DNA from: Longimicrobium sp.
Lineage (GTDB): Bacteria; Gemmatimonadota; Gemmatimonadetes; Longimicrobiales; Longimicrobiaceae
Direction of reading: 5' to 3'
DNA: 39,514 nucleotides
Assembly: GCA_036387335.1 (NCBI GenBank)
Contig: DASVTZ010000248.1
Location: 1 to 39,514, forward strand
Below, piece after piece: positions 5,242 to 11,059 of the stretch. Numbering within the stretch: position 1 is the first letter of the stretch; each line of letters opens with the position of its first letter. The notes beneath the pieces were generated by a model, which did no database searches, had not been told where the DNA came from, and saw only the letters and a program-made list of their open reading frames with translations. Both the position numbers and the translations under genes were made by a program.

Positions 5242-6792
5242 CTAGTGCGCGCTTGCGCCCCTGCGGATCGCCTCGCGGAGGTCGTCCATCGTGCCGTTGA
5301 GGCCGTGCACGGCGCCGATGGTGCGCACGTCCAGGCGGAACCGGCGGATGAGGGATTCGAGGTCGCGGTTGGCGTCGGGCGAGACGACGGGGCCGCCTTG
5401 CTCGTTGATGCGCAGCAGGTCGCCCTGGAAGAGGAGCTTCTGCGCGGGGACGTACACGGCCAGCATCGCGGCCGCGTGCGAGGTGGGGCCCACGTTAAGT
5501 ACCTCCACCGCGCGCGCTCCCCGGCCGATGGTGCGGCGTCCGGACAGCGTCTCGAACACCGCTTCCGGGGCCGGCGCGCGCCGCGGCTGGCCGATGCGGC
5601 CGAGGGTGCGGGTGACGGAGATCATCCGCCGGATATACGCCTCGCTCCCCGGCGCAACCAGGATCGTGGCACCTCGCGCCGCGTACGCCGGGATGCCGCC
5701 GATGTGGTCGCCGTGGTGGTGCGTGATGACCACGTAGCGGATCGGACGGCCGGGGAACGTGTGCTCGATCAGCGCGATCGCGGCGCCGGTGGCTTCGGGG
5801 TTGAGTGGCGCGTCCACCACCACCAGTCCCTCGTCCGTGTCCACCACCAGCGAACGGTAGCCACCGCCGATCCGCTCCACGAAGTACACGCCCTCCGCCA
5901 CGCGCGTCATCGCGGGCGCGCCACCGGGCGCCGGGAACGCGTAGCCCGCCGGGACGCGGAAGAGGCTGTCCGGGAGCTCGGCGGCCGGGGCGAACGAGAC
6001 CAGGCGCTGCCGTCCCGTGAGCAGCCCGTTCCAGCGCAGCTCCAGCCGGCGCGGCACCGCGAAGCCCGCGACCTGCTCGTAGCCCGCGAAGTGCACCGCA
6101 TCCACCTCGTCGCCCAGCGAGCCGTTGCCCATCTCCTCGCGGCGGATGAGGAGGTGGGTGGCGGTGTCGAAGTAGAGGGTGACCGGGTCTCCCTCGGCGG
6201 TCGTGTACGAGATCGCCTCCTCCTGCCCGGTGCGGCCGAGATGTCGCAGCGTGTTGGAGCGATCGAGGGCCTGGCGGATCAAAAGGACCGGCATGTTTGC
6301 GCCAAGCGACGATAGTGCCCGCCGCTGCTGTGTCCCCGTGGTGTCGCGCTGGAAGGTGGTGCCGCCCATTCCGCGCTCCGGGCGATGGTTGTAGCTCAGG
6401 AACTCGCGGCCGCTTCCTGCCCACCGGAACGCGTTCAGGTAGCCGCCGCCGAAGCTGAACTCGCGGTCCCACGCGAAGCGGCCGCCCGCGAGGTCGACCC
6501 GCACGTCGCTCACCACCGCGCGCGCGTTCCCGGCCGTGTCCCACGACGCGGCGGGCACGCGGCCCTGCGTGGGCGCGTAGTCCTCGCCCTCCCAGCGGAA
6601 CGAGGCCGCCGTGAGCCCGCGGATCGCAGCCGCGCCGCCGTGCGCCTCCGCGCCCAGGCGCAGTACCTCGGCGGCGCGCGAGTAGGAGCTCCACAGCGGG
6701 CCTTGCGGGGCTTGCGCGGTGAGGGCGGCGGGGGTGGGGGCGAGCAGGAGGGCGGTGAGGAGGAGATGGCGGCGCTTGGTGTGGAGGGGCAT
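5242..6792 (-). CDS. Secreted metallo-beta-lactamase-fold hydrolase with long N-terminal domain
   Basis: The 516-residue product has a signal peptide (MPLHTKRRHLLLTALLL, cleavage probably near TAQA). Residues about 30-285 form a beta-rich N-terminal domain. The metallo-beta-lactamase fold follows from about 295, with HHHGDH (ligands H358, H360, D362, H363), a further histidine at 439 (GPTSHA), an aspartate at 458 (FQGDLL) and H496 (GAVHG). All di-zinc ligands therefore appear present. The architecture resembles secreted MBL-fold hydrolases rather than a classical lactamase; the substrate is unknown. CGGAGC lies a few bases before the ATG. A palindrome at 6824-6841 matches one in front of the blaI gene, so BlaI-type control is likely. 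Confidence 0.85.
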   Translation of the reverse strand: MPLHTKRRHLLLTALLLAPTPAALTAQAPQGPLWSSYSRAAEVLRLGAEAHGGAAAIRGLTAASFRWEGEDYAPTQGRVPAASWDTAGNARAVVSDVRVDLAGGRFAWDREFSFGGGYLNAFRWAGSGREFLSYNHRPERGMGGTTFQRDTTGTQQRRALSSLGANMPVLLIRQALDRSNTLRHLGRTGQEEAISYTTAEGDPVTLYFDTATHLLIRREEMGNGSLGDEVDAVHFAGYEQVAGFAVPRRLELRWNGLLTGRQRLVSFAPAAELPDSLFRVPAGYAFPAPGGAPAMTRVAEGVYFVERIGGGYRSLVVDTDEGLVVVDAPLNPEATGAAIALIEHTFPGRPIRYVVITHHHGDHIGGIPAYAARGATILVAPGSEAYIRRMISVTRTLGRIGQPRRAPAPEAVFETLSGRRTIGRGARAVEVLNVGPTSHAAAMLAVYVPAQKLLFQGDLLRINEQGGPVVSPDANRDLESLIRRFRLDVRTIGAVHGLNGTMDDLREAIRRGASAH

Positions 6793-8834: not shown

Positions 8835-10328
8835 GTGGAGCAGATTTTTATTCGTTTGTTCGAGGAGCGGTTCGGCAAGCCGCCGGCCTCCATCCTCCAG
8901 ATCGAGGGCGATGGCTCCAGCCGCGCCATGTACCGCTTGATCGGCGACGGGATGGAGACGGCGGTGGGCGTGGTGGGCCCCGACCGCGACGAGAACCGCG
9001 CCTTCCTCTCGTACTCGCGCGCCTTCCGCTCCATCGACCTTCCCGTGCCCGAAATCTACGCGGTGGACGAGGAGGCGGGGCTGTACCTGGAAGAGGACCT
9101 GGGCGAGACGACGCTCTTCGACGCCATCGTCGAGGCGCGCGCTGAGGACCCAGGGGCCGACTTCCCCGCCGCCATGATCCCCATCTACAAGCGGATCCTG
9201 GAGACCCTCCCCCGCTTCCAGGTGGAGGGAGGCAAGGTGATCGACTACTCGGTCGCGTACCCGCGCGCCGCGTTCGACCGCCAGTCGATCCTGTGGGACC
9301 TGAACTACTTCAAGTACCACTTCCTGAAGCTGGCGCACGTCGACTTCAACGAGGCGCGCCTCGAAAAAGACTTCCGCCGGCTGACGACGTTCCTGCTGGC
9401 GGCGGACACGCGCCACTTCCTGTACCGCGACTTCCAGAGCCGCAACGTGATGCTGCGCGACGGCGAGCCCTGGTTCATCGACTACCAGGGCGGCCGCCGC
9501 GGCGCGCTGCAGTACGACGTCGCGTCGCTGCTGTACGACCCCAAGGCGGGGATCCCGGAGGCGCTGCGCGAGGAGCTGCTGGAGCACTACCTGGACGCGC
9601 TGCACGAGCACCTTTCAAGGGTGGACCGCGAGCGCTTCCGCCAGCACTTCCGCGGGTACGTGCTCGTGCGCATCATGCAGGCGATGGGGGCGTACGGCTA
9701 CCGCGGCTTCTTTGAGCGCAAGCCGCGCTTCCTGCAGAGCGTGCCGGGCGCCATCCGCAACATCGAGCGGCTGCTGGAGACCGGCTTCGTGGCGCTGGAG
9801 CTCCCCGAGCTGCGCTCCGTCTTCGAGCGGATCTGCAACAACGCGGCGCTGCGGAAGTCGCAGCCCAAGCCGTTGCCCGGGCTCACGCTGTACGTGGGGA
9901 GCTTCTCGTACAAGGGCGGCTATCCGGACGACAGCGGCGGGCACGGTGGCGGCTTCGTCTTCGACTGCCGCGCGGTTCACAACCCCGGGCGCTATCCGGA
10001 GTATGCGCCGCTCTGCGGGTGCGACGAGCCCGTCAGCGAGTTCCTGGACACGCTCCCCGAGACGGCGGAGTTCTGGGAGAACGTGCGCGACCTGGTGGAG
10101 CGGCAGGTGGGGGTGTACCTCACCCGCGGATTCCAGTCGCTCAGCGTGTACTTCGGGTGCACGGGGGGGCAGCACCGCTCCGTCTACTTCGCGGAGAAGC
10201 TGGCGGCCCACCTGCGCACGTACTACCCCTCGGTGAACGTGGTGCTCAGCCACCGCGAAGAGGGGAAGTGGCCCGCGCGCCGCGCCGCCGCCGAAGCAGC
10301 CTCCCGGGCCCACCTCGCGGTGGTCTGA
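8835..10328 (+). CDS. AmgK-like sugar kinase fused to RapZ C-terminal domain
   Basis: The 497-residue product joins two domains. Residues about 1-335 are an aminoglycoside-phosphotransferase-fold kinase: GDGSSRAMYR near 26-34, catalytic YRDFQSRNVML (D199, N204) and metal-binding IDYQGG (D216). This pattern fits AmgK, the anomeric kinase for MurNAc/GlcNAc in cell-wall recycling. Residues about 350-497 match the RapZ C-terminal domain: SFSYKGGYP, FVFDCRAVHNP and GCTGGQHRSV. In E. coli that half of RapZ senses glucosamine-6-phosphate and binds the GlmZ RNA. The RapZ P-loop half is absent. The start is GTG 8835, with AGGAAG upstream. The next gene, MurU-like, begins 2 bases after the stop. Similar fusions are, as I recall, seen in Bacteroidota. 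Confidence 0.82.
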   Translation: MEQIFIRLFEERFGKPPASILQIEGDGSSRAMYRLIGDGMETAVGVVGPDRDENRAFLSYSRAFRSIDLPVPEIYAVDEEAGLYLEEDLGETTLFDAIVEARAEDPGADFPAAMIPIYKRILETLPRFQVEGGKVIDYSVAYPRAAFDRQSILWDLNYFKYHFLKLAHVDFNEARLEKDFRRLTTFLLAADTRHFLYRDFQSRNVMLRDGEPWFIDYQGGRRGALQYDVASLLYDPKAGIPEALREELLEHYLDALHEHLSRVDRERFRQHFRGYVLVRIMQAMGAYGYRGFFERKPRFLQSVPGAIRNIERLLETGFVALELPELRSVFERICNNAALRKSQPKPLPGLTLYVGSFSYKGGYPDDSGGHGGGFVFDCRAVHNPGRYPEYAPLCGCDEPVSEFLDTLPETAEFWENVRDLVERQVGVYLTRGFQSLSVYFGCTGGQHRSVYFAEKLAAHLRTYYPSVNVVLSHREEGKWPARRAAAEAASRAHLAVV

Positions 10329-10330
10329 GC

Positions 10331-11059
10331 GTGGACGCCCTGATCCTGGCGGCCGGGCTGGGTACGCGCCTCCGGCCGCTGACCGACCACACCCCCAAGG
10401 CGCTGATCGACGTGGGCGGCGTCCCCATGCTGGAGCGCGTCGCCCGCCGGCTGATCGAGGCGGGCGCGGACCGGCTGATCGTCAACACGCACCACCTGGG
10501 CGAGCAGATCGCGCGCTACGTGGAGGAGCGTGGCGGCTTCGGCGTGGAGACGGTCATCTCGCACGAAGAGGGCGAGCCGCTGGAGACGGGCGGCGCGCTC
10601 GTGGCCGCGACCGACCTCTTCCGCAAGGACGCGCCCTTTTTCGTCCACAACGCGGACATCCTCACCGACCTCCCGCTGGCCGAGATGTACGCGGCGCACG
10701 TGGAGGCCGGCGACCCGCTCGCCACGCTGGCGGTGATGGAGCGCCCCAGCACGCGCGGCTTCCTCTTCGACGACGCGGGGCTGCTGGGCCGTGTGGACCA
10801 CACGAAGAAGCTGGACATCCGCGTGCGCCCGGCCGTGGGCGAGGCGAGGGCGGTGCCGTTCGCGGGGGTGCACGTGATCTCGCCGCGCATCTTCGGGCTG
10901 CTGACGGAGCGGGGCGCCTTCTCGGTGCTCGACCCGTACCTGCGCCTGGCGGGCGTCGGCGAGCGCGTCCTCCCCTTTCGCGTGGACGGCCGCCTCTGGC
11001 TGGACATCGGGCGCCCGGAACAGCTCGAGGCGGCGCGGGCGGCGGTGGCGAAGGGGTGA
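10331..11059 (+). CDS. murU: MurU-like sugar-1-phosphate nucleotidyltransferase
   Basis: The 242-residue product has the nucleotidyltransferase signature LAAGLGTRLRPLT at about 6-18, then PKALIDVGGVPML, and HNADILTDL, whose D-x-D-like aspartate binds the metal. It ends with WLDIGRPEQL. The length and the absence of a left-handed beta-helix acyltransferase domain fit MurU (MurNAc-1-phosphate uridylyltransferase) better than GlmU. Its GTG start is 2 bases after the kinase stop, so the two are co-translated. Together they would turn MurNAc (and perhaps GlcNAc) into the UDP-sugar, bypassing de novo synthesis. Other sugar specificities (mannose-1-P, glucose-1-P) are possible. Confidence 0.8.
   Translation: MDALILAAGLGTRLRPLTDHTPKALIDVGGVPMLERVARRLIEAGADRLIVNTHHLGEQIARYVEERGGFGVETVISHEEGEPLETGGALVAATDLFRKDAPFFVHNADILTDLPLAEMYAAHVEAGDPLATLAVMERPSTRGFLFDDAGLLGRVDHTKKLDIRVRPAVGEARAVPFAGVHVISPRIFGLLTERGAFSVLDPYLRLAGVGERVLPFRVDGRLWLDIGRPEQLEAARAAVAKG

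Follow-up and report, generated by a model that had tools for sequence, protein, structure and literature searches.

An AmgK-like kinase fused to the RapZ C-terminal domain and paired with a MurU-like gene: a candidate phosphosugar step in cell-wall recycling

The Fusion Gene, Its Partner and Its Neighbors

The window, i.e., the whole analyzed stretch of 39,514 nucleotides from Longimicrobium sp., carries on its forward strand a gene for a protein of 497 aa (8835..10328), in which an AmgK-like kinase is fused to the C-terminal domain of RapZ (RapZ-C). The open reading frame starts with GTG at 8835 and ends with TGA at 10326-10328. The APH/AmgK-like kinase domain covers aa 22-260 (8898..9614, +) according to Pfam PF01636 (35.8 bits, cut-off 23.2), and its helical part reaches past the Pfam end to about aa 335. 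The RapZ C-terminal domain follows at aa 351-475 (9885..10259, +; PF22740, 104.2 bits, cut-off 27), with the motif GCTGGQHRSV beginning at aa 441. No match to RapZ's P-loop half (PF03668) was found in the fusion protein or in the whole source genome, which is 95.65% complete. An initial annotation, made from the letters of the sequence, had described just this composition, a kinase of APH/AmgK character joined to RapZ-C with the P-loop half missing, and it is borne out on all three counts.

The kinase half contains the loop RDFQSRN (9426..9446, +; aa 198-204) and an aspartate at aa 216 (9480-9482, +). R198, D199, N204, and D216 are identical in 81 of 81 aligned fusions; by analogy with the APH family we take RDFQSRN to be the catalytic loop and D216 the metal-site Asp. 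The AmgK models of NCBIfam are the best kinase models for this half (52.5 and 46.2 bits) and stay below their equivalog cut-offs of 550 and 500 bits, as do two unfused kinases adjoining MurU-like genes (107 and 114 bits). Structure prediction from the window protein together with 63 relatives, a check that the initial annotation had proposed, gave confident models, with pLDDT values of 93.3 at full length and 92.7 for RapZ-C alone. The modeled RapZ-C superimposes on E. coli RapZ (5o5s/5o5o) with a Z of 20, and the solved structure closest to the kinase half is 3csv, by its annotation a putative aminoglycoside phosphotransferase.

Two bases past the stop codon of the fusion, a second gene starts with GTG at 10331 (10331..11059, +). 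It encodes a MurU-like sugar-1-phosphate nucleotidyltransferase of 242 aa (PF00483, 81.6 bits) that reaches 131 bits with the MurU model NF045761, below the cut-off of 250. MurU is the top NCBIfam model for all five partners tested (those of the window, L111, L094, L063, and L114), which supports the MurU-like partner of the initial annotation. Because the curated AmgK and MurU cut-offs are missed, we speak of AmgK-like and MurU-like proteins throughout.

On the reverse strand, a gene for a BlaR1-type M56 peptidase (PF05569, 7048-8781) and one for a BlaI/MecI-type repressor (PF03965, 8277-8684) lie divergent from the fusion gene, so that a regulator of the beta-lactam/cell-wall-damage type adjoins a wall-recycling operon. 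Beyond them, also on the reverse strand, 5245-6792 encodes a protein of the metallo-beta-lactamase fold whose N-terminal part is long.

Distribution and Origin of the Fusion

A scan of genome contigs revealed at least 583 stretches that encode a relative of the fusion. Among the matches listed, 80 loci from other genomes with a match across both domains were retained; their proteins share 46-65% identity with the window protein. According to their titles, which may err where metagenome-assembled genomes (MAGs) are concerned, these loci belong to Gemmatimonadota, Bacteroidota, Elusimicrobia, Verrucomicrobia, Calditrichaeota, Neomarinimicrobiota, Latescibacterota, KSB1, Acidobacteria, Ignavibacteria, and others. 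With 80 two-domain loci and the signature C-x-G-G-x-H-R-S in 84 of 84 fusions, the occurrence is far beyond chance. In evenly drawn samples, the fusion was found in 16 of 121 Gemmatimonadota genomes (the window's own included) and, in the phylum to which Draconibacterium belongs, in 14 of 118; unfused kinases were found in 6 of 121 and 25 of 118, respectively. No genome of these two samples (121 + 118) holds both. A single drawn genome, G177, has a fusion-type kinase without RapZ-C. Parabacteroides distasonis and Bacteroides finegoldii encode the fusion followed by a nucleotidyltransferase, and their fusions are annotated as 'RNase adapter RapZ'.

In a kinase tree, all 29 fusions tested fall into one clade that includes G177 (support 100/98, with a long-branch warning); the unfused kinases of Bacteroidota fall together with AmgK of proteobacteria (97/94). 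Judged by this tree, the fusion is therefore old and of single origin. The family is one clade spread over about ten phyla and no local oddity, which answers the survey of Gemmatimonadota and Bacteroidota that the initial annotation had called for. Within this clade, RapZ-C has been lost at least once, namely in G177. There (L111 1590-3301), the kinase stops near the domain border and overlaps the MurU-like gene by 4 nt; no RapZ-C was found in the locus or the genome, and neither AnmK nor MurQ was found in the genome. The idea that the fusion is a decayed RapZ was rejected, as a second RapZ_C protein is encoded besides the fusion in 8 of 49 fusion genomes and the 29 fusions form one clade. A third architecture, lacking both the kinase and the P-loop half, is given by Streptomyces plasmids, which encode a stand-alone RapZ-C of 160 aa with the motif CTGGRHRSV that is named RNase adapter RapZ (L100 2001-2483).

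The MurU-like gene is the sole neighbor common to more than half of the loci (54 loci, window included). It starts at most 400 nt downstream in 52 of the 80 loci, 4 of the 80 leaving no room for it, and overlaps the fusion gene by 4 nt in 16. Of 12 fusion genomes without an adjacent copy, 11 have an unlinked MurU-like gene (275-324 bits). In kinase-less genomes the best MurU match reaches 109 bits, and a MurU-like gene is present in 0 of 14. A search across the fusion loci for a conserved neighborhood beyond MurU found none, and no glycan gene is conserved adjoining the fusion; further neighbors, among them YebC, a TonB receptor, and a Na+/H+ antiporter, are clade-specific. In Xanthomonas, an unfused phosphotransferase precedes a gene named murU, and RapZ is encoded separately. 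Apparent three-domain fusions with MurU at L014, L037, and L039 turned out to be artefacts of extension past the true stop. In Parabacteroides (L094 6160-7191), a gene of the endonuclease/exonuclease/phosphatase family lies 15 nt past the MurU-like gene in the same direction.

Conserved and Rebuilt Residues of the RapZ-C Pocket

Alignment columns were counted over 84 fusions and 17 RapZ proteins, nine of them from named bacteria and eight from fusion genomes, and are given in E. coli numbering. Alignments A1 and A2 leave out 17 of the 80 loci to limit near-duplicates. The counts exclude two Streptomyces plasmid proteins: L101, whose loop could not be located, was omitted, and L100 was aligned and not counted.

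The phosphate-binding CX5R(S) loop CTGGQHRS (10158..10181, +; aa 442-449) lies between a strand and a helix: in the full-length model, strand 435-442 leads into the loop, and helix 448-463 begins at R448. C247, G249, G250, H252, R253, S254, D182, R184, N188, P189, and H276 are invariant in all 84 fusions and 17 RapZ proteins, and T248 is replaced by Ser once among the fusions. Other positions are fixed differently in the fusions. The position of H190 is taken by Gly in all 84, where the 17 RapZ proteins have His (7), Tyr (5), Asn (3), or Phe (2); that of W191 is Arg or Lys, and that of R238 Phe or Trp, again in 84 of 84 fusions. Relative to E. coli RapZ, the fusions also carry a Gly-rich insertion of five residues. 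In the window protein, insert and pocket wall read GGHGGGFVFDCRAVHNPGR (9936..9992, +; aa 368-386), with G385 at the H190 position. With H190 and W191 replaced and a loop inserted, the fusions have a remodeled sugar side of the pocket.

These residues bear on the proposal of the initial annotation that RapZ-C reads glucosamine-6-phosphate (GlcN6P), against which a loss of the binding residues was to be counted. Four of the five published pocket residues, T248, G249, H252, and R253, are kept and the fifth, H190, is not; together with the Arg/Lys at W191 and the Gly-rich insert, this argues against GlcN6P itself as the ligand. The presumed absence of the RNA route fared better. The fusion has no RapZ N-domain, and the basic RNA-binding residues (E. 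coli R238, 270, and 281-283) are not kept, which speaks against a GlmY/GlmZ-like route. Of the 17 RapZ proteins, 6 also have a gap at position 282 and 9 at position 283, and the RNA-binding tail is thus not a family-wide feature of RapZ.

In passages of the literature, the function of E. coli RapZ is reported to be abolished by each of H190A, G249W, R253A, C247A, and C247S (H190A: PMC9841335), and the RapZ pocket is likened to the loop of cysteine-dependent tyrosine phosphatases (PMC7199280). The RapZ homologue YvcJ is stated to possess phosphatase activity in a passage of PMC7525490, beside which a paper is cited that claims such activity for HpaP in its title; none of the literature passages on the activity of YvcJ locates it in the CX5R loop. 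The phosphatase-loop idea for RapZ is thus already in print, and its bearing on the fusion is new as far as searched, no paper having been found that treats both RapZ and AmgK. Like PTP/DSP cysteine-dependent phosphatases, RapZ-C combines strand, CX5R(S) loop, and helix (84 of 84), but its overall likeness to their fold is weak. Foldseek retrieved only RapZ at E 0.001 or better, and VIA-align placed the dual-specificity phosphatases 7ncy (Z 5.3, 84 residues, rmsd 3.5) and 7y4e (Z 4.9) at a level shared with unrelated folds and below phosphofructokinases (Z 6.7).

AnmK, MurQ, and MupP across Genomes

In Pseudomonas, as described in passages of PMC5371407, AnmK produces MurNAc-6P, from which MupP removes the phosphate before AmgK and MurU act; MurQ represents a competing catabolic route. 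Among the drawn genomes, AnmK is present in 19 of 22 that carry the fusion and 22 of 26 that lack the kinase, but in 0 of 31 whose kinase is unfused and not in G177 (0 of 1). MurQ (E<=1e-40) is present in 12 of 22 fusion genomes and 26 of 26 kinase-less ones, and again in 0 of 31 and 0 of 1. The kinase-less set consists of the first 26 genomes listed (20 of 78 and 6 of 99) and is no random draw. Genomes include MAGs and are therefore in part incomplete, and the tests covered 8 of the 16 Gemmatimonadota fusion genomes. AnmK without MurQ occurs in 7 of the 19 AnmK-bearing fusion genomes vs. 0 of 22 kinase-less ones (Fisher 0.002, not corrected for kinship), and such genomes therefore need a MurNAc-6P phosphatase or some other exit. 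RapZ-C is absent in all three kinase lineages without AnmK. As the RapZ_C-less kinases amount to only these three lineages, two clades and G177, the AnmK contrast carries much less weight than its raw p-value suggests.

A further 49 fusion genomes, the window's own and 48 hand-chosen for spread from the 80 loci, overlap with the 22 drawn ones in G023 and apparently in G145 (same coordinates as G002). Here, AnmK and MurQ occur together in 30, AnmK only in 6, MurQ only in 5, and neither in 8. MurQ is thus present in 35 of 49, the window's genome among them. RapZ-C is kept with neither AnmK nor MurQ in 3 of the 22 drawn and 8 of the 49 hand-picked fusion genomes.

MupP did not exceed its model cut-off in any of 68 genomes, among these 12 of the 31 with an unfused kinase. 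Matches below the cut-off (E<=1e-25) were found in 2 of 13 fusion genomes with AnmK and without MurQ and in 5 of 12 genomes whose kinase is unfused; there were none in fusion genomes with both (0 of 13) or neither (0 of 3), in G177 (0 of 1), or in kinase-less genomes (0 of 26).

In the window's genome, another contig (C203; L112 3586-9357) encodes a MurQ-like etherase, AnmK, and a GH3 glycosidase, possibly NagZ, in one island. This island is a catabolic route beside the fusion.

A Possible Phosphatase Fused to the Kinase

The gene pair would constitute an anabolic module of cell-wall sugar recycling of the AmgK-MurU kind, for which we infer the following substrates, catalysis, and direction of flow. 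The kinase half would convert MurNAc (or GlcNAc) to its 1-phosphate, and the MurU-like partner would turn the sugar 1-phosphate into a UDP-sugar. Since RapZ-C tracks AnmK, retains a loop of phosphatase type, and shows a remodeled sugar side, the fused domain would act on a 6-phosphorylated sugar upstream of the kinase. As a cysteine-dependent (CX5R) phosphatase, it would dephosphorylate the AnmK product MurNAc-6P and pass MurNAc to the kinase, thereby taking the role of MupP. The identity of the module as AmgK/MurU-type is much firmer than any assignment of RapZ-C, and that the domain is a MurNAc-6P phosphatase feeding the fused kinase is put forward tentatively, as a reading that falls somewhat short of an even chance.

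Like AmgK-MurU-MupP of Pseudomonas (PMC5371407), the module places an AmgK-type kinase before a MurU-type uridylyltransferase, AnmK is common, and some genomes are without MurQ; unlike there, the kinase carries RapZ-C and MupP is missing above its cut-off in the 68 genomes searched. Beta- and gammaproteobacteria have either MurQ or AmgK-MurU, according to passages of the same source, whereas the fusion genomes keep MurQ as well in 12 of 22 cases. With RapZ/YvcJ, the RNase adapter and GlcN6P sensor, the fusion shares the C-terminal domain and its invariant CX5R pocket; it differs in the missing P-loop N-domain and basic RNA-binding tail, the Gly-rich insertion, and the three replacements at H190, W191, and R238.

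Several findings speak against a phosphatase. It is not needed where MurQ is present, i.e., in 12 of 22 and 35 of 49 fusion genomes, and the genomes that have neither AnmK nor MurQ nevertheless keep RapZ-C. HAD phosphatases are ubiquitous, a divergent MupP may be present in fusion genomes, and the structural likeness of the modeled domain to dual-specificity phosphatases is weak.

The closest competitor, possible but somewhat less probable, regards RapZ-C as an allosteric sensor: an amino-sugar 6-phosphate (GlcN6P, GlcNAc-6P, or MurNAc-6P) in the CX5R pocket would switch the kinase on or off, and salvage would follow the supply of precursors with no small RNA involved. E. coli RapZ-CTD alone is reported to bind GlcN6P (KD 10 nM by SPR) and to respond (a passage of PMC7073468), the fusions keep the anion-binding residues and have lost the RNA-binding tail, RapZ-C occurs nowhere but in the fusion in 41 of 49 fusion genomes, and in one lineage, G177, the kinase-MurU pair is kept without the domain. 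GlcN6P itself is an unlikely ligand, though, given the pocket changes in all 84 fusions. An invariant Cys moreover exceeds the needs of an anion pocket, and C247S is reported as dead in E. coli; a pure sensor also leaves unexplained that AnmK without MurQ is restricted to fusion genomes. The proposal of the initial annotation that amino-sugar level tunes recycling directly thus retains its phosphate-binding loop and its independence of an RNA route, but not its ligand, and a phosphosugar step fits the context at least as well. The phosphatase is the best account of AnmK link, loop, and rebuilt pocket, most of which a sensor of the same sugar would also cover, and we therefore favor it, with the same reserve as above.

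Two other explanations seem improbable. The pair might serve another sugar: instead of recycling MurNAc or GlcNAc, its anomeric kinase and its nucleotidyltransferase would provide a surface glycan with an NDP-sugar; the missed AmgK (52.5 of 550 bits) and MurU (131 of 250) cut-offs and the breadth of the nucleotidyltransferase superfamily leave room for this. However, each of the five partners tested has MurU as its best model, the unfused Xanthomonas pair with its named murU has the same gene order, AnmK accompanies the fusion, and it is the MurU-like gene, not any glycan gene, that recurs beside it in more than half of the loci. Slightly less probable still, RapZ-C could be a structural part that holds a kinase dimer or tetramer together or docks MurU or AnmK, its pocket being a relic. 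E. coli RapZ-CTD is indeed described as dimerizing alone (in a passage of PMC7073468), but 11 pocket and loop positions are fixed in 84 of 84 fusions despite 46-65% identity, where a relic would drift.

The phosphatase reading can be extended to the family as a whole, a step we regard as possible yet doubtful, about on a par with the sensor. RapZ-C would then be at root a cysteine-dependent phosphosugar phosphatase. Joined to AmgK in about ten phyla, it would make up a bifunctional enzyme, a single chain on which two successive reactions shift MurNAc's phosphate from C6 to C1. In these bacteria it would represent the missing MupP and a branch point against MurQ, and E. coli RapZ would be an RNA-binding offshoot.

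Implications for Cell-Wall Recycling

The family is widespread, gut Bacteroidales included, and a kinase of cell-wall recycling is concealed under the label 'RNase adapter RapZ'. In Pseudomonas, the AmgK-MurU recycling pathway confers intrinsic fosfomycin resistance. For comparisons within the family, G177 offers a natural deletion of RapZ-C. If RapZ-C is a sensor, the fusion would tie salvage to amino-sugar supply within one protein. If it is catalytic, this would explain three reported observations that so far lack a place, the phosphatase activity of YvcJ, the dead C247S variant of RapZ, and the transformed GlcN6P in the crystal, and it would provide the missing MurNAc-6P phosphatase of the fusion-bearing phyla.
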